Of a stretch of DNA of 64,000 nt, positions 6,393 through 54,592 are shown piece by piece. The DNA lies in NCBI RefSeq assembly GCF_900163715.1, contig NZ_FWFF01000017.1, positions 1-64,000 of the forward strand. Reading direction: 5' to 3'. Under the pieces are notes generated by a model. It had not been told where the DNA came from. It ran no database searches and worked only from the letters and a program-made list of their open reading frames with translations. The DNA comes from Brevibacterium yomogidense. GTDB taxonomy: Bacteria > Actinomycetota > Actinomycetes > Actinomycetales > Brevibacteriaceae. The translations under genes and the position numbers were made by a program. Within the stretch, counting starts at the first letter, position 1; each line of letters begins with the position of its first letter.

Positions 6393-6505
6393 ATGTGCAG
6401 AGTGTCACATTAGCCGCGACGTGGGCAGTGAGGTCACCCTAACTCTCACGAGAAGCGCTGGTGACGGCTGTGCCCCGTGCGGATCGGCCCCTCCACCACA
6501 CACAT

Positions 6506-46158: not shown

Positions 46159-46416
46159 GTGGTCGTTCGGGTCACCGTCCTCACGAGGACGGACTGCGGA
46201 CTGTGCTCCGCTGCGGAGCAGGTCGTGGCGCAGGTGTCCGAGGGCCGTGACGTCGATGTGACGTTCACGGACATCGACACAGACCCTGAACTGAAGGACC
46301 GGTACGACTGGGATGTCCCCGTCGTGCTGGTCGATGGCCGGCAGGTGGGCTTCCACCGGATCGACCCCGATCGCTTGGCGCGCGCCATCGACGCGCGCCA
46401 AGCGGCCAAAGCCTGA
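46159..46416 (+). CDS. Glutaredoxin-like small thioredoxin-fold protein (DUF836)
   Basis: 85 residues. VTVLTRTDCGLCSAAEQVV carries a CxxC active site (CGLC), and DVPVVLVDGRQVGFHRID has the cis-Pro region. The DUF836 group lies next to rex or hemA in many actinobacteria. A disulfide or redox role is likely; the partner is unknown. GTG 46159 with GGGAGA upstream. Its stop codon overlaps the candidate Rex site. Confidence 0.85.
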   Translation: MVVRVTVLTRTDCGLCSAAEQVVAQVSEGRDVDVTFTDIDTDPELKDRYDWDVPVVLVDGRQVGFHRIDPDRLARAIDARQAAKA

Positions 46417-46425
46417 ACGCGCTCA
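46414..46425. promoter_or_regulatory. Candidate Rex operator upstream of rex
   Basis: TGAACGCGCTCA matches 11 of the 12 core bases of the Streptomyces Rex operator (TGAACGCGTTCA within TGTGAACGCGTTCACA); the outer TGTG/CACA bases are not conserved. It lies 52 bp upstream of the rex GTG, where autoregulation would be expected. Confidence 0.4.
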
Positions 46426-46450
46426 ATCGGACGAGCATCTGATTGAGCGC
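46419..46450. terminator. Perfect inverted repeat before rex
   Basis: GCGCTCAATC (46419-46428) and its exact complement (46441-46450) flank a 12-nt loop. It overlaps the Rex-site candidate and could terminate or attenuate transcripts from the thioredoxin-fold gene. Confidence 0.5.
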
Positions 46451-46477
46451 ACAGCGCAGAGAGGAGAGCGAGACGCG

Positions 46478-47227
46478 GTGGCACAGACCTTGTCGGCTGC
46501 GACGGCGCCCGGTGGCGCACAACGGTCGGCTCCCATGCCAGCCGTGACCCGCATGCCGGTTTACCTCGGCGCACTGACCGCTCTCATCGCCTCCGGCCGG
46601 ACGACAGCCTCCAGCGAGGACCTCGCCCGCACCTGCGGTGTCGGCGCAGCGATCGTCCGCCGCGACCTCTCCCTCCTCAGCTTCACCGGACGCCGCGGGG
46701 TCGGCTACGACGCCCTCGACCTCGCCGACGCGATCCGCTCCTTCCTCGGCATCGACCGGCTGCGCCCCGTGGGCGTGGTGGGTGCGGGCCGTCTGGGCAC
46801 CGCACTGGCGCACTACCTGTCGGACCCCGAGCACGGCTTCTCCGTGCAGGCCGTCTTCGACGCCGCCCCCGCACGCATCGGCGAGCCGGTCGGCGACCTC
46901 GTCGTCACGGACATCTCCGATCTGCCGCGCGCAGTCGAAGCGCTGGCACTCGAACTCCTCGTCATCGCGGTCCCCGCGGGCGCGGCCCAGTCCGTCGTCG
47001 ACGCCGTGGCGGGCACCCCCATCAGGGGCCTCCTGAACTTCGCGCCCGTGCCCGTGCGCACGCCCGCAGGCGTCGAAGTCCGCCACGTCGACCTCGCGAC
47101 CGAACTGCAGGTCCTCTCACACTTCGCTCCCAGCAGCGCGGAGGCCGCCGGTGGCGCGCAGCCCGTGCCGGGAGCCGCCGCACACAGTCCCCATCCGTCG
47201 CCCGGCCCCCTGGAGGCAGAGACGTGA
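46478..47227 (+). CDS. rex: Redox-sensing transcriptional repressor Rex
   Basis: 249 residues. An N-terminal winged helix (about 20-85; TRMPVYLGALTALIASG, AAIVRRDLSLL) is followed by a Rossmann domain with GVVGAGRLGTALAHY (NAD(H) site), and the C-terminal domain-swap helix. Rex leaves DNA when NADH/NAD+ rises. The extra ~18 residues before TRMPV and the Ala/Pro tail are low complexity. GTG 46478 with GAGGAG 11 nt upstream; ATG at 46534 is an alternative. It overlaps the hemA-hemC gene by 4 bp, as rex leads hemACD in Streptomyces. Confidence 0.95.
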   Translation: MAQTLSAATAPGGAQRSAPMPAVTRMPVYLGALTALIASGRTTASSEDLARTCGVGAAIVRRDLSLLSFTGRRGVGYDALDLADAIRSFLGIDRLRPVGVVGAGRLGTALAHYLSDPEHGFSVQAVFDAAPARIGEPVGDLVVTDISDLPRAVEALALELLVIAVPAGAAQSVVDAVAGTPIRGLLNFAPVPVRTPAGVEVRHVDLATELQVLSHFAPSSAEAAGGAQPVPGAAAHSPHPSPGPLEAET

Positions 47228-50115
47228 CCACGCTCGTACTCGGAGTCTCACACCGTTCCGCACCCATGTCGGTGCTCGACGCCGTCGCGCTGTCGGGCAG
47301 GAACGTCGACCTCCTCACCGACCGCGTGCTCGGCGGTGAGTACGTCGACGGTGCGCTCGTGCTGGCGACGTGCAACCGCCTCGAGATCGTGGCCGACGTC
47401 CGCGCCTTCCACGGCGGACTCGCCGACGTGGGCTCGGCACTCGTGAGCGTCACGGGGATCGAGTGGGCGGAACTCGCGCACCACGTCTACGTCCGTTTCG
47501 ACGACAAGGCCGTGGAGCACCTCCTGACGGTGGCCGCCGGACTGGATTCGATGGCGGTGGGCGAATCCCAGATCCTCGGCCAGCTCCGCCAGTCGTACAG
47601 TGCCGCGCAGGAAGAGGGACACCTCACGGGTGAGCTCAGCCGCACGGTGCAGGAATCGCTCCGTGTGGGCAAGCGCGCGCACGCGGAGACGGAGCTCGAC
47701 TCCGTCGCCCGCTCACTGCTCGACACCGCCCTGACGGAGGCCGTGCCCCACATCGGTCCGCTGGCAGACGCGGATGTGCTCGTCGTGGGCGCAGGCGCCA
47801 TGTCCGGACTGTCGGTCGCCACCCTCGCGCGCCAGGGCGTCGCCTCCGTGACCGTGCTCAACCGGACGCTCGACAAGGCGCAGCGGCTCGCGGACTCCGT
47901 CGGAGGGCGGGCCCGGGAACTGACGCCCGCCGTGCTCGCAGAGGAGTTCGCCCGGGCGGATCTCGTCATCTCCGTGACGGGCGCCCGCGGGACGGTCATC
48001 GATGCGGGGACCGTCACGGCATCGCTCGATCATCTGGCCCCCGGTGAAGAGCCCACCAGCACGTTCGTCGTCGACCTCGCACTGCCGTTCGACGTGGATC
48101 CGGACGTGGAGACGCACGAGCACGTGCGGACGATCGGCCTCGAGGGCCTCTCATCGCTCTTCGCCGACTCCGCCTACACGCAGACCTCCGGTGTCGTGGA
48201 GATCGTCACGCAGGTGCGCTCGATCATCCACGAGGAGATCGCCGCGCTGTCAGCGAGCCGTCGCGCACGCCAGATCGCGCCGACCGTCACGGCGCTGCGC
48301 CGCCAGGCCCGCGACACGGTGGACCGTGAGTTCGAACGGCTGTCGCGCCGTCTGGGCGACCGCGTGTCCGACAAGGACCTCGACGACATCCGGAAGTCCC
48401 TGCGCCGTGTCGCGACCAACCTCATCCACACTCCGACGGTCCGGGTGAAGGAGCTCATGGGCGCGGACGACGAATCGGTCGACTACGCCGCGGCGCTCTC
48501 GATGCTCTTCGATCTGCAGCGCACGCCGCCCGCCGCGGTCGAATCCGCGTCCGCTCCCGGCCCGGACTCCACAGCCACCGCCGCCGAGGCCATGGCCGCG
48601 AATCCGTTCGTGCTCGCCTCCGCATCCGCTCCGGAGGGCGCTGGGTCCATCTCTGAGTCCGGCTTCGCGTCCGGGACTGGTTTCGTGTCCGGGTCGGTGA
48701 CTGGGTCTGTGACTGGGTCTGGGTCCGTGACCGCGCTGGCGACTGCGCCCACCGCGGTGCTGAATCCGGCGGCGGCCGTGTCGACGCCGGAGACCGGTCC
48801 CGTCACAAGTGCCGGTCCGGTCGCGGGCACGAGTCCTGTCGCAGGCGCGGCCTCCTCGGCCGTCACCTCGGCCTCGGCCTCGTCATCAGCCGGCTCGTCG
48901 CAAGCCACCCCGTCGCAAGCCTCCTCGTCAGCAGACGACCACTACGTGGTGGCCGATGGCCAGCGCCCCGTGGCGGACCACACGCTGGACGTCGTCGAAC
49001 CGGACGAGCCCACCGGCCGCACCGTGCGGCTCGGCACCCGCAGGTCGCAGCTGGCCCGGTCGCAGTCGACGGCGATCGCGCAGCAGCTCGCCGCGCAGAC
49101 GGGATGGCGGGTCGAGATCGTCGAGGTCGTCACAGAGGGCGACGTGAACATGAGGCCGCTCGCCTCGTTCGGCGGAACCGGTGTGTTCGTCTCCGCAGTC
49201 CGCAGCGCACTGCTGAGCGGCACGATCGACATCGCCGTCCACTCGCTGAAGGACCTCCCCACCGCACCGGCACCGGGCATCCACCTGGGTGCCGTGCCCC
49301 CGCGCGTCGACCCGTCCGATGTCCTGATCGCCCGCGACGGCATGCGCCTCACCGATCTGCCCGCAGGCTCCGTCATCGGCACCGGCTCCCCGCGTCGCGC
49401 CGCACAGCTGCGCGACGCGCGCCCCGACATCGAGGTGACCGGAGTGCGCGGCAACGTCGAGACCCGCATCCGCCACGTGACGGAGGGGCGCCTGGACGGC
49501 GTCGTGCTCGCCGCCGCCGGCGTGCGGAGGCTCGGCCGGATCGACGAGGCCACCGACGTGCTCGTCGGACCGATCATGCTCCCGGCCCCGGGCCAGGGCG
49601 CACTCGGGATCGAATGCCGCGACGCGACCGCCGATCTGAACGCGGACGACGCGTCGCTGCGCGATGCGCTGCACGGACTGCACGACCACACGACGGCACT
49701 GGCCGTCGACTGCGAGCGGGCGATCCTGTCCCGCGCGGAGGCCGGCTGCTCCGCCCCCATCGGCGCGCTCGCGACGCTGGACGGCCGGACCCTCGAGGTC
49801 TCCGGAGTCCTCGCGGACGACGAGGGGACACTGCTGCGCGTCACGAAGGCGACGCAGCTCCCCACCGCAGGGGATTCCGACCGGGCCTCGGCAGATTCAG
49901 CCACGGCCTCGGCGGACTCCGCCACCGCTTCTTCGGAAGCGGCCCATGCCGCCCGCTTGGATGCGGCGAAGGACCTCGGCGCGCGAGTGGCCGAAGAGCT
50001 CCTCGACGGACTCGGCATCGACCCTCGGAAGTCGGTCGGAGCGAATGCTCCGCAGACCCACCTTCCGACCACCCACCACGCAGCAGGAGGTGACGAGGGT
50101 GGCGAATCCAGCTGA
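47224..50115 (+). CDS. Fused glutamyl-tRNA reductase and hydroxymethylbilane synthase
   Basis: 963 residues. HemA occupies about 1-432: LGVSHRSAP, catalytic C50 in LATCNRLEIV, GLDSMAVGESQILGQ, NADPH-site VVGAGAMSGLS and the C-terminal dimerisation helices. A Ser/Ala/Thr/Gly-rich linker (about 433-598) with 12-bp repeats follows. HemC occupies about 599-963: RLGTRRSQLARSQS, HSLKDLPT, GTGSPRRAAQL and the dipyrromethane-cofactor Cys in AEAGCSAPIGAL (C842). The product would perform the first committed C5-pathway step and the tetrapyrrole assembly step, with HemL and HemB in between. Ser/Ala repeats also interrupt HemC domain 3. No stop, ribosome binding site or start lies at the join. Overlaps rex (4 bp) and the next gene (17 bp). 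Confidence 0.93.
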   Translation: MTTLVLGVSHRSAPMSVLDAVALSGRNVDLLTDRVLGGEYVDGALVLATCNRLEIVADVRAFHGGLADVGSALVSVTGIEWAELAHHVYVRFDDKAVEHLLTVAAGLDSMAVGESQILGQLRQSYSAAQEEGHLTGELSRTVQESLRVGKRAHAETELDSVARSLLDTALTEAVPHIGPLADADVLVVGAGAMSGLSVATLARQGVASVTVLNRTLDKAQRLADSVGGRARELTPAVLAEEFARADLVISVTGARGTVIDAGTVTASLDHLAPGEEPTSTFVVDLALPFDVDPDVETHEHVRTIGLEGLSSLFADSAYTQTSGVVEIVTQVRSIIHEEIAALSASRRARQIAPTVTALRRQARDTVDREFERLSRRLGDRVSDKDLDDIRKSLRRVATNLIHTPTVRVKELMGADDESVDYAAALSMLFDLQRTPPAAVESASAPGPDSTATAAEAMAANPFVLASASAPEGAGSISESGFASGTGFVSGSVTGSVTGSGSVTALATAPTAVLNPAAAVSTPETGPVTSAGPVAGTSPVAGAASSAVTSASASSSAGSSQATPSQASSSADDHYVVADGQRPVADHTLDVVEPDEPTGRTVRLGTRRSQLARSQSTAIAQQLAAQTGWRVEIVEVVTEGDVNMRPLASFGGTGVFVSAVRSALLSGTIDIAVHSLKDLPTAPAPGIHLGAVPPRVDPSDVLIARDGMRLTDLPAGSVIGTGSPRRAAQLRDARPDIEVTGVRGNVETRIRHVTEGRLDGVVLAAAGVRRLGRIDEATDVLVGPIMLPAPGQGALGIECRDATADLNADDASLRDALHGLHDHTTALAVDCERAILSRAEAGCSAPIGALATLDGRTLEVSGVLADDEGTLLRVTKATQLPTAGDSDRASADSATASADSATASSEAAHAARLDAAKDLGARVAEELLDGLGIDPRKSVGANAPQTHLPTTHHAAGGDEGGESS
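48661..48735 (+). repeat. Short repeats in the hemA-hemC linker
   Basis: GTGACTGGGTCT occurs twice in direct succession (48697-48708, 48709-48720), flanked by diverged copies such as GTGTCCGGGTCG. They encode Gly-Ser-Val-Thr units of the linker. Confidence 0.8.
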
Positions 50116-51697
50116 TGAGGCGTTCGGTGCGCTCGCCGTGCCCACCGTCTACTTCCTCGGCGCGGGCCCCGGCGATCCGTCGCTCATGACCCGCCGCGGG
50201 ACGGATCTGCTGGCCGGCGCACCGCTCGTCGTCTCCGATCCCACGGTGCACGACGGCATCCTCGACGCCTACGCCGGAGCAGACGTCCAGCGCATGGACT
50301 CGACGGAGCTCGGCCAGGCCGCGACGACCCGGGGACGGAAGCTCGCGGGCCTCGCGCGCGAGCACGGAAGCGTCGTGCGGCTCGTGCCCCATGACGGCGT
50401 CCTCTTCTCCGCGACGACGGACGAGGCCGCAGCGGTACGGCGTCAGGGCGTCGACTTCGAGATCGTTCCCGGTGTGGGAGTCGCAGCCTCCGCAGCGGCC
50501 TACGCGGGTGCCCCCGTGACCACGAACCGCGTCCGCTCCGTCCGCCTCGTCGAGGCCGGAGAGCAGTCGCACATCGACGTCTCGAAGCATCGGAACACCG
50601 GACACGTCATCAACGGCGAGCGCGACGACGTCATCGACGCGCTCACGGCTCTGCTGAGCGACGGCTGGGATGAGGGCACTCCGGTCCTCCTCACGACAGA
50701 GGTCTCGACAATCGCCCAGCTGACGCTGGAGACGACGTTCGGGCAGGCACCGAGCCGTCTGCGCGACGAGGTCCCCGAGCGCACCCGCGTGACGATGTTC
50801 TTCGGTCAGGGCGTGGAGCAGCACGCAGAGCTCGACTGGTTCGAATCGCGTCCGCTCTTCGGCTGGCGCGTCCTCATCCCGCGCACCAAGGAGCAGGGTC
50901 GCTCGACCGCCCGCGAACTGTCCGAGCTGGGCGCGATCGGCACGATCGTGCCGACGATCGCGATCCAGCCGCCCCGCACGCCCACCCAGATGGAGCGGGC
51001 GATCCAGGGCCTGGTGAACGGCGACTACCAGTGGGTCGGCCTCACGAGCGTCAATGCGGTCCGCGCGGTCCGCGAGTGGTTCGAGGAGTTCGGACTCGAC
51101 GCGCGCGCACTCGCCGGAGTGCGGGTCGCCGCGGTCGGCGGGCCCACAGCAGACGCGCTCGAGGACTGGGGCGTCACGCCGGACCTGGTCCCGTCGGGAG
51201 AGCACTCCGCTCGGGGCCTCGTCGAGGACTGGCCCGATCGGGACCCGCTCATCGACCCGGGCGGCCGCGTCCTGCTGCCGCGGGCGGACATCGCGACCGA
51301 GGTCCTCTACGAGGGGCTCCAGGAGCGCGGCTGGGAGGTCCACGACGTGACCGCCTACCGCACGGTCCGGGCTGCTCCGCCGCCGGCGCCGGTGCGCGAT
51401 TCGATCAAATCCGGTGACTTCGACGCCGTGCTCTTCACGTCCTCGTCCACGGTCCGCAACCTCGTGGGGATCGCGGGCAAGCCGCCGTCCAGCACGGTGG
51501 TGTGCGCCATCGGTCCCGCCACCGCGCAGACCGCGCAGGAGCACGGGCTGGAGGTCGACGTGCTCGCGGACGAGGCGAACCTCGGGTCCCTCATCAGCGG
51601 CCTCGTCGATTTCGCGGTGAAGAAGCGCACGCAGGACCTGGCCGACGGCCGGGCGCCTCTGCGGCCCTCCCAGATGCGCCCGCTCAAGAAGAGGTGA
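50099..51697 (+). CDS. hemD: CobA-like domain fused to uroporphyrinogen-III synthase
   Basis: 532 residues. The N-terminal half (about 10-255) is a tetrapyrrole-methylase fold with [18 protein letters not shown] intact, but the second SAM motif, normally GGDPxxFGRGxEE, is [17 protein letters not shown], so methyl transfer is doubtful. The C-terminal half (about 260-520) is HemD ([40 protein letters not shown]), which closes hydroxymethylbilane to uroporphyrinogen III. GTG 50099 follows AGGAGGTGA. The gap to hemB is 2 bp. Confidence 0.88.
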
Positions 51698-51699
51698 CG

Positions 51700-52767
51700 A
51701 TGATGGACAGCAGACCGGTCTACCAGCTGGCGGACGGCGCACCGCGCCCCCGCAGACTCCGCACGACACCGGCGCTGCGGCGTCTGGTGAGCGAGAACCG
51801 CCTCCATGCGGCGGACCTCATCCTCCCGATGTTCGTGAAGGAGAGCCTCGAGGAGCCGCTCGAGCTCACCTCGATGCCCGGGGTGAAGCAGCACACGCTC
51901 GACTCGCTGCTGTCCGATGCGCGCGCCGCGGTCGCCGCGGGAGTCGGCGGACTCATGCTCTTCGGCATCCCCACCCTGCGCGACGAGCAGGGCTCCCAGG
52001 GCGACGACCCGGACGGGATCCTGAACCGCGCCCTGCGGCTCCTGCGCGATGAGCTGGGCGATGACACCGTCATCATGGCCGACCTGTGCCTCGACGAATT
52101 CACCTCGCACGGCCACTGCGGCGTCCTGGCGGCGGACGGCACCGTCGACAACGACGCGACGCTGGACCGCTACGCCTCGCTGGCCGTCGCGCAGGCCGAT
52201 GCCGGAGCCCACGTGCTGGGCCTGTCCGGGATGATGGACGGCCAGGTCGCCGCGGTCCGACACGCGCTGGACGCGACGGGCCATCAGGACGTGGTGGTGC
52301 TCGCGTACGCGGCGAAGTTCGCCTCCGCGTTCTACGGCCCGTTCCGCGAAGCGGTCGACTCGCAGCTGACCGGCGACCGCCGGACGTACCAGCAGGACGC
52401 GGCGAACGGCCGCGAGGCCCTGCGCGAACTCGAGCTCGACATCACCGAGGGCGCGGACATCGTCATGGTGAAGCCCGGGACGCCCTATCTGGACGTCCTC
52501 GCAGACGCGGCCGCAGCCAGCTCCGTCCCGGTCTGGGCCTATCAGATCTCCGGTGAGTACGCGATGATCGAGTTCGCTGCGCGCGCCGGCGCGATCGAGC
52601 GCATGCCCGCGATCCTCGAGAGCCTGGTCGGCTTCAAGCGCGCAGGGGCGGACGCCGTCCTCACCTACTGGGCGGCCGAGGTGGCCGCACTGCTGAACGG
52701 CCAGGCGGATCCCGCCGCGACACAGACGGCGACACAGACGACGACACAGACGACGGAGGACCGCTGA
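51700..52767 (+). CDS. hemB: Delta-aminolevulinic acid dehydratase (porphobilinogen synthase)
   Basis: 355 residues. Two ALA molecules condense to porphobilinogen. Schiff-base lysines are K206 ([14 protein letters not shown]) and K258 ([10 protein letters not shown]). The metal-site segment is [14 protein letters not shown]: the first and third Cys of the zinc site are kept, the second is Asp. The C terminus ends in a Thr/Gln repeat ([14 protein letters not shown]) from three 12-bp units. Two consecutive ATG codons (51700, 51703) follow GAGGTG; the second has better spacing. The stop overlaps the MarR gene by one base. Confidence 0.96.
52717..52752 (+). repeat. 12-bp tandem repeat (x3) at the hemB 3' end
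   Basis: GCGACACAGACG at 52717 and 52729, and ACGACACAGACG at 52741. Four codons per unit, so frame is kept. Confidence 0.85.
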
Positions 52768-53258
52768 TGCGCTGGCTCACCTCGGAGCAGCTGGTCGCAT
52801 GGCGATCGTTCCTGGACTCCCACATGCTGCTCATGACCCGTCTGGACCGGGAGCTGCGGGCCGAATCCACGCTGGGGCTCACGGAGTACACCATCCTGGT
52901 GCGGCTGTCGGAGTCCGATGACCACACGCTGCGGATGGCCACCCTCGCCGCGGACACCGGGGTGTCGCGCTCGCGGCTGACCCACATCGTCGCGCGCCTC
53001 GAGGACCGGGGGATCGTCGAGCGCGAGAAGACTGCCGAGGACCGCCGCGGTGTGCGCTGCAAGCTCACCGAGGACGGCTTCCGCCTGCTCGAGAACACCG
53101 CACCCGTGCACGTGACCGGTGTGAGGACGCATCTCATCGACCTGCTCGACGACACGGAGATCGAAGTCATGGCGGGGATCTTCACGAAGGTGCTCGCGCA
53201 CATGCGCGAACTGCCCGCCGACGCCCGCATCATGCCCGACGGAGAGGACGTCTCATGA
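52767..53258 (+). CDS. MarR family transcriptional regulator in the heme operon
   Basis: 163 residues. Classic MarR layout: dimerisation helix ([20 protein letters not shown]), winged helix ([33 protein letters not shown]), wing ([18 protein letters not shown]) and C-terminal dimerisation helices. No Cys, so not a thiol sensor. It overlaps hemB by 1 bp and hemL by 4 bp, so it is made together with the heme enzymes. Ligand and targets unknown; control of its own operon or response to a tetrapyrrole intermediate is possible. Confidence 0.9.
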
Positions 53259-54592
53259 CACACCCGGCACCCGCATCCGCCGCACTGTTCGACCGCGCCA
53301 GGGCCGTCATCCCCGGCGGCGTGAACTCGCCCGTCCGCGCCTTCGGTGCGGTGGGCGGCACCCCCCGCTTCATCGACCGCGCCGACGGCGCCGTCCTCAC
53401 CGACGTCGACGGCCGGGAGTACGTCGATCTCATCGGCTCGTGGGGCCCCATGATCCTGGGCCACTCGCATCCCGAGGTCGTCGCCGCCGTCCGCGAGGCC
53501 GCCGGCCGCGGCTTCAGCTTCGGCACCCCCGGCGAGGCCGAGGTCCTGCTCAGCGAAGAGCTCGTCTCCCGCGTCGAGCCGGTCGAGCAGGTCCGCCTGG
53601 TCAACTCCGGCACGGAGGCGACGATGTCCGCGATCCGTCTGGCGCGCGGGTTCACCGGGCGCTCGAAGATCGTGAAGTTCGCAGGCTGCTACCACGGGCA
53701 CGTCGACGCCCTGCTGGCTGCCGCAGGCTCGGGCCTCGCGACCTTCTCGCTGCCGGACACTCCCGGCGTGACGGGTGCGTCCGCGGCGGACACCCTCGTG
53801 CTGCCGTACAACGACCAGGATGCCCTTGCCCGGGCCTTCGAGCAGCACGGTGCCGACATCGCGTGCGTCATCACGGAGGCGAGCCCCGGCAACATGGGCG
53901 TCGTCCCGCCCCGCGACGGCTTCACCCAGGCGATCCGACGGGTCACCCAGGAGCACGGCGCACTCATGGTCTCCGATGAGGTCATGACGGGCTTCCGCGT
54001 GTCCGCATCGGGCTGGTACGGATACGAGTCCGCGCGCGACGGCTATCCGGATGGTCCCGCCGATCTCTTCACCTTCGGCAAGGTCATGGGCGGCGGCTTC
54101 CCCGCTGCGGCGTTCGGCGGTCGCCGGGACGTCATGGAGCACCTGGCGCCGGCGGGCCCCGTCTACCAGGCGGGGACGCTCTCCGGAAACCCAGTCGCCT
54201 CTGCGGCCGGCCTCGCGACGCTGCGCCTCACCCGCGAACTGGACGTGTACCCCCGTCTCGAAGCAGCGGCGGACACACTGCGGGCCGCCGTGGGCGACGC
54301 CCTGAGCGCAGCCGGCGTGGCACACCGCATCCAGAGTGCGAACTCGATGTTCTCCGTGTTCTTCACGGAGCGCGAGGTGCGGAACTTCGAGGATGCGGGA
54401 ACACAGGACACCGCGGCCCACGCCGCGTTCTTCCAGTCGATGCTGGAGTCCGGCATCCACCTGCCGCCGTCGGCGTTCGAAGCGTGGTTCCTGTCCTACG
54501 CCCACACGGACGAGGTCCTGGACCGCATCGTCTCCGCCCTGCCGGCCGCAGCGCGGGCGGCAGCGGCGACCGGCTCCTCGGCGGTCTCCTGA
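53255..54592 (+). CDS. hemL: Glutamate-1-semialdehyde 2,1-aminomutase
   Basis: 445 residues, PLP fold type I aminotransferase. It turns glutamate-1-semialdehyde, the HemA product, into 5-aminolevulinate. [25 protein letters not shown] and [16 protein letters not shown] with the PLP Lys (K276) identify it. ATG inside the MarR stop; the stop shares one base with the next start. Completes the C5 pathway with the fused HemA in the same operon. Confidence 0.97.

Follow-up and report, generated by a model that had tools for sequence, protein, structure and literature searches.

A HemA-HemC fusion gene present throughout the examined genomes of Brevibacterium

Introduction

Glutamyl-tRNA reductase (HemA) and hydroxymethylbilane synthase (HemC) catalyse non-consecutive steps of tetrapyrrole synthesis, with HemL and HemB acting between them. 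We have found both enzymes encoded by a single open reading frame in the actinomycete Brevibacterium yomogidense, in the first 64,000 nucleotides of contig NZ_FWFF01000017.1 (assembly GCF_900163715.1; this whole stretch is called the window below). The locus raises three questions: whether such a long frame is a real gene, how it originated and what the cell could gain by tying together two enzymes that do not hand a product to each other. As described below, the gene is a genuine natural fusion, made of a complete HemA, a linker and a complete HemC. Judging from the comparison of genomes, its product is most likely a bifunctional protein, flexibly tethered and made strictly 1:1, that goes back to a single ancestral merger.

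The fused gene and its product

The predicted protein (Table 1) has a calculated mass of about 98.7 kDa, and the content of guanine plus cytosine (GC) over the gene is about 0.68–0.76. It passes the models of both enzymes, TIGR01035 for HemA with 316.9 bits (cut-off 209.55) and TIGR00212 for HemC with 286.9 bits (cut-off 164), while a second HemA model, NF000744, stayed just under its cut-off (414.3 vs. 429). Pfam recognizes GlutR_N (residues 6–156), Shikimate_DH (177–310) and GlutR_dimer (330–431) in the HemA half, followed by Porphobil_deam (601–805) and Porphobil_deamC (826–871) in the HemC half, which also matches the solved structures 4mlq and 1ah5, among others. The signature cysteines are found in ATCNRLE (C50) and EAGCSAPIGA (C842). 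A previous sequence-only reading of the window had described one frame of 963 codons with both enzymes complete, and the Pfam and TIGR models agree. It had also estimated the low-complexity joint at about 165 residues, close to the 171 that we measured after LFDL (428–431) and before LGTRRS (starting at 603). The composition of this linker in the window is dominated by Ala (36 residues), Ser (30), Thr (18), Val (18), Gly (17) and Pro (16).

The residues expected of working enzymes are conserved in the 56 Brevibacterium genomes that could be compared (see next section). In the HemA half, Cys50, which we take to be catalytic, and Arg52 are kept in the 52 genomes aligned there (the loci of the other four being cut) and His99 in all 56, the last two being presumably neighbouring residues of the catalytic site; T49, C50 and R52 were also invariant in the 33 rows of a further alignment (A3). 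In the HemC half, Asp677 is kept in 56/56 genomes, Arg724, Arg725, Arg742 and Arg748 in 55/55 (one unaligned) and Cys842 in 54/54 (two unaligned). We assume that Asp677 is catalytic, that the four arginines are substrate or cofactor residues and that Cys842 is the attachment point of the dipyrromethane cofactor. The unaligned positions are put down to cut loci, to a gap of undetermined bases and to a frameshifted gene, both described below. An alignment that combined fused rows with HemA-only and HemC-only ones (A1) was misaligned and was dropped, alignments A2 and A3 taking its place.

Conservation in the genus

An open frame alone is weak evidence, because long open frames are common in GC-rich DNA. 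We analyzed a set of 57 Brevibacterium genomes, in 56 of which the junction between the two halves is located on a single contig. One HemA match was found in each of the 57, and HemC was always found at a single place (in two pieces in genomes G037 and G049). The junction was open in 56 of the 56 single-contig cases, the beginning of HemC following HemA without a change of frame. Both halves lie in one frame also on contigs L001, L002, L003, L005 and L006, which overlap in part with the 57-genome set. The fusion, which the sequence-only reading had considered natural while asking if it was clade-wide, is therefore found genus-wide, and the sequencing error in the linker that it had named as its main possible refutation is excluded by the 56 open junctions.

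Some details of this set weigh against so uniform a picture. The two halves are located at the ends of two contigs in genome G038, in G037 an assembly gap (239 N) interrupts HemC past the junction, and in the one-contig genome G049 (locus L115) HemC is frameshifted, again downstream of the junction, with no second HemC match; the frameshift may be a sequencing error or a true pseudogene. No extra copies of hemA or hemC were seen in the 57 genomes at an expectation value of 0.001, with the limit that in seven of them not all of the HemA candidates from the first look were scored.

Across the genus the HemA half is much more divergent than the HemC half, despite both being parts of one protein: the identity of the fused protein in the window to that of species with short linkers is about 50–55% over the HemA half and about 70–75% over the HemC half.

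The linker as coding sequence

The region between both enzymes has the third-position GC content (GC3) of its flanks: 0.861 in the linker, 0.862 in HemA and 0.869 in HemC over the 56 genomes. For the 38 genomes with an ungapped linker of 52 codons we calculated the ratio of nonsynonymous to synonymous changes (pN/pS), which was 0.255 in frame vs. 1.34 and 4.14 in the two shifted frames. Stop codons were absent in frame from all 38, and the shifted frames contained them in 15 and 13 genomes. In its evolution the linker behaves as translated sequence. Within it, the first part changes faster than the later part (pN/pS 0.36 vs. 0.18, same 38 genomes), and its length goes from 52 to 171 residues, i.e., about threefold, among the 56 genomes. 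No fixed geometry of the linker is thus conserved.

Could the frame still be a sequencing or assembly artefact, or a long frame that stayed open by chance? Long chance frames are common in such DNA, which speaks for the latter. We drew 198 genomes from the order, of which 164 had HemC (15 of these being Brevibacterium), and among the matches listed found 29 HemC frames of at least 700 amino acids outside the genus. HemA was in frame in none of the 29; hemA was located in another open frame in 20 and gave no match in the fetched stretch in the remaining nine. A second sample of 198 genomes drawn from the phylum (150 with HemC) provided no fusion among the HemC frames of at least 600 amino acids (12 new loci plus G075, which is L158), again among the matches listed, and in the 12 new loci hemA was always in another open frame. 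Fused loci were found only in Brevibacterium among the best 80 of 224 relatives. Fusions elsewhere are possible, these samples being drawn and partial. As for the window, a chance frame is excluded by the coding behaviour of the linker and its frame-specific substitutions, and with the 56 open junctions the artefact or chance-frame explanation is already refuted by the genus-wide data; we leave it practically no probability. The fusion is real because both domains are in one frame, the linker is constrained as coding sequence and the arrangement is conserved throughout the genus.

Origin of the fusion

In the relatives outside the genus that we compared, the two enzymes come from separate adjacent genes, as the sequence-only reading had stated to be normal. 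Our sample of the family contained 60 genomes, the 57 of Brevibacterium and three of other genera. The latter three each have two separate genes, with hemA overlapping hemC by 4 base pairs (bp). We have compared 35 separate pairs in total, 3 from the family, 20 from the order sample and 12 from the phylum sample, the last two groups having been picked for their long HemC frames and being hence non-random. All were adjacent, with an overlap of 4 bp in 33 and of 1 bp in 2.

Locus L113 (genome G058) allows the old boundary to be placed inside the fused gene. There, HemC starts at the overlapping GTG, with the N-terminus VSDHTFDIVEP, and the matching segment is present in all 56 fused genes as PVADHTLDVVEP or a near variant. 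This comparison indicates that the conserved end of the linker is partly a remnant of a former N-terminal extension of HemC. In a predicted model of the HemC half with its extension (mean predicted local distance difference test, pLDDT, of 87.8), the end of the extension (HTLDVVEPDE, model residues 21–30, residues 586–595 of the protein) reached a mean of 85, and the blocks preceding it 62 and 42. The codon at the position of the former hemC start is GTC in 32 fused genes, GTG in 14, GTT in 6 and GTA in 4. A usable start has thus been lost in 42 of the 56, the codon there being GTC, GTT or GTA.

This bears on a second explanation, that translation starts again within the linker and yields a separate HemC beside the fusion. 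In the window the codon at the former start is still GTG, and a further GTG, preceded by GGTGA, lies 107 codons before LGTRRS; in 23/56 genomes, the window included, the linker contains some in-frame start codon with a Shine-Dalgarno-like match over four or more bases. These starts speak for some additional HemC, which is possible in some species, and to that extent against the fusion protein as the only product. No start site is common to all the genomes, however, and the former one is lost in most as just described. In 6/56 there is no in-frame ATG, GTG or TTG at all between LFDL and LGTRRS, and the GTG at the former start in the window lacks a Shine-Dalgarno-like match. We consider internal initiation quite improbable.

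In a HemC tree of 100 rows, the 54 fused rows were located on one side of a branch with a support of 99 in the Shimodaira-Hasegawa-like approximate likelihood ratio test (SH-aLRT), and L113 adjoined this clade (SH-aLRT 85), although this was a quick tree whose careful search is incomplete, which tells against leaning on it too heavily. These sequences are most simply read as the outcome of a single merger in the genus ancestor, and we consider this the most likely course. The ancestral hemA and hemC would have overlapped by 4 bp (GTGA) and would have been translationally coupled. A small insertion or deletion that changed the frame before the hemA stop could then have joined them in a single event. 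Later the old hemC start would have decayed to a valine codon and the junction would have drifted into a flexible linker.

Function of the fusion

The reading that we favour is that of a bifunctional HemA-HemC protein with a flexible tether. Its HemA half would dimerize and make glutamate semialdehyde for HemL and then HemB, and the tethered HemC half would build hydroxymethylbilane from porphobilinogen for HemD. Transfer between the two halves is not expected, because HemL and HemB act between them. What the covalent link would do is fix synthesis at 1:1 and make HemC share the turnover of HemA. The fixed ratio had been proposed in the sequence-only reading, and a strict 1:1 would indeed follow from the fusion; near-1:1 synthesis is probably older, since the separate pairs overlap by 4 bp (33/35) or 1 bp (2/35). 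As coupling probably already gave near-equal synthesis, the fusion would add strict stoichiometry and shared turnover.

Cleavage of the protein in the linker is possible and would count against this reading. The gene would then be fused and the protein cut, the cell would use separate HemA and HemC, and the fusion would be a neutral way of expressing two genes. Such a tether could well be sensitive to proteases: it is of low complexity in the window, it is predicted to be disordered in the short-linker protein L006 (residues 428–488 with pLDDT below 50), and both the faster evolution of its first part and its variable length would fit. Yet the conserved part of the linker is continuous with HemC and in part older than the fusion, which explains the conservation without a protease site. 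We regard cleavage as unlikely.

The link could alternatively organize a complex of HemA, HemL, HemB, HemC and HemD, as was suggested in the sequence-only reading. The genes of all five enzymes are in one run, from 47224 to 54592, and the conserved segment could serve for docking. Complexes of HemA with HemL have been reported from E. coli, Chlamydomonas and Acinetobacter (PMC6399207). Against such a complex are the non-consecutive steps of HemA and HemC, the roughly threefold variation in the length of the linker, its uneven evolution and the fact that the conserved segment is partly modelled with HemC. Nor did modelling place the two halves confidently relative to each other: in the full-length model of L006 the HemA half was good, the linker disordered and the predicted template modelling score (pTM) 0.52, a weak test in which only five rows cover HemC and the HemC half is poor, so that the arrangement of domains was not drawn from it. 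With steps that are non-consecutive and a tether that varies, there is no support for channelling, for a gating of the flux or for a larger complex, and we give the complex a low probability.

The tether might also have been selected as a control device. HemA, the reported control point, is said to be degraded when heme accumulates (PMC6399207). If this holds in Brevibacterium, a heme-triggered breakdown or inhibition of HemA could in the fused protein remove HemC too or keep it in check, and the conserved ADG-PVADHTLDVVEP segment would be the contact through which the effect is transmitted or docked. In that case the entry and the assembly of tetrapyrroles would be switched together, an undescribed regulation of heme synthesis in this genus. 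We take this to be a rather unlikely extension of the bifunctional tethered protein.

In any event, the gene provides a clean natural case in which operon neighbours that overlap by 4 bp in relatives became one protein, while the unfused state persists in sister genera. The two steps that it joins are non-consecutive and belong to an essential pathway. It can therefore be tested here directly whether enzyme fusions are kept for channelling, because they fix stoichiometry and make turnover shared, or just because a lost start or stop was not regained.

Gene neighbourhood

The fused gene is part of a run of genes on the same strand (Table 1). The gene that follows codes for another fusion, of a tetrapyrrole methylase with HemD. 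In its methylase half the motif GAGPGDP is kept, the score with TIGR01469 (SUMT) is well under the cut-off (89.9 vs. 185), and the central stretch differs from the GDP-bearing stretch of the actinobacterial loci L143 and L158. The same central change is found in B. yomogidense L003. This methylase half may be non-catalytic.

Table 1. Positions in the window of the fused gene, its parts and the neighbouring genes
Feature	Coordinates	Strand	Remarks
rex-like redox repressor gene	46313..47227	+	frame as listed; start probably further downstream, with model matches beginning at about residue 63
hemA-hemC fusion gene	47224..50115	+	963 codons; GTG start, sharing 4 bp (GTGA) with the rex stop; TGA at 50113-50115
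HemA half	47224..48516	+	residues 1-431; GlutR_N, NADPH-binding domain, dimerisation domain; C50
linker	48517..49029	+	residues 432-602; 171 amino acids; rich in Ala, Ser, Thr, Val, Gly and Pro
conserved linker end	48931..49029	+	residues 570-602, including PVADHTLDVVEP
putative former hemC start codon	48970..48972	+	now Val583, GTG in the window; from comparison with L113
HemC half	49030..50112	+	residues 603-963; Cys842
tetrapyrrole methylase-HemD fusion gene	50099..51697	+	GTG at 50099 (or 50090) as likely start, within the 3' end of hemA-hemC
hemB (ALAD)	51502..52767	+	frame as listed; start probably further downstream, the match beginning at residue 82
MarR-family regulator gene	52767-53258	+	between hemB and the hemL-like gene; frame touches or overlaps both
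class-III aminotransferase gene	53255..54592	+	HemL by family and operon context

Comparison with known systems

Fusions of tetrapyrrole enzymes are already known, and it is the pairing of HemA with HemC that appears to be new. Among the search results listed from the open-licence literature, judged by title or by the start of the abstract, no paper describes it, in line with the sequence-only reading, according to which the fusion is not known to have been characterized. The fused protein is probably already present, unremarked, in automatic annotation.

The bifunctional tetrapyrrole enzymes that reportedly exist in Leptospira (HemC/HemD) and in clostridia (HemA with sirohaem synthase) do not join HemA with HemC. 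The CobA-HemD fusion likewise unites enzymes of the same pathway in a different pair, and the next gene in the window is of this kind.

Among the closest known arrangements is the rex-hemACD(B) operon of Streptomyces, with the same order rex-hemA-hemC-hemD-hemB as the window. Its description names hemA and hemC as two separate genes, whereas they are fused in the window (PMC5355995). The operon of Streptomyces differs also in its Rex operator, since at up to two mismatches none was found in the window near rex (about 46300); the only match, at 6394, is distant and at chance level. The HemA-HemL complex also places HemA beside an enzyme of the pathway, but it is non-covalent and concerns consecutive steps with an unstable intermediate (PMC6399207). 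In Archaea, a HemA-HemB fusion in one Sulfolobus assembly and HemC-CobA-HemD fusions have been described (PMC11237513). They likewise involve early tetrapyrrole enzymes, including HemA or HemC, with other partners, and the pair HemA plus HemC is none of those described there (HemA-HemB, HemC-CobA-HemD or CobA-HemD). While the HemA-HemB fusion is described there from one assembly, the HemA-HemC fusion is found throughout the examined genomes of a genus.

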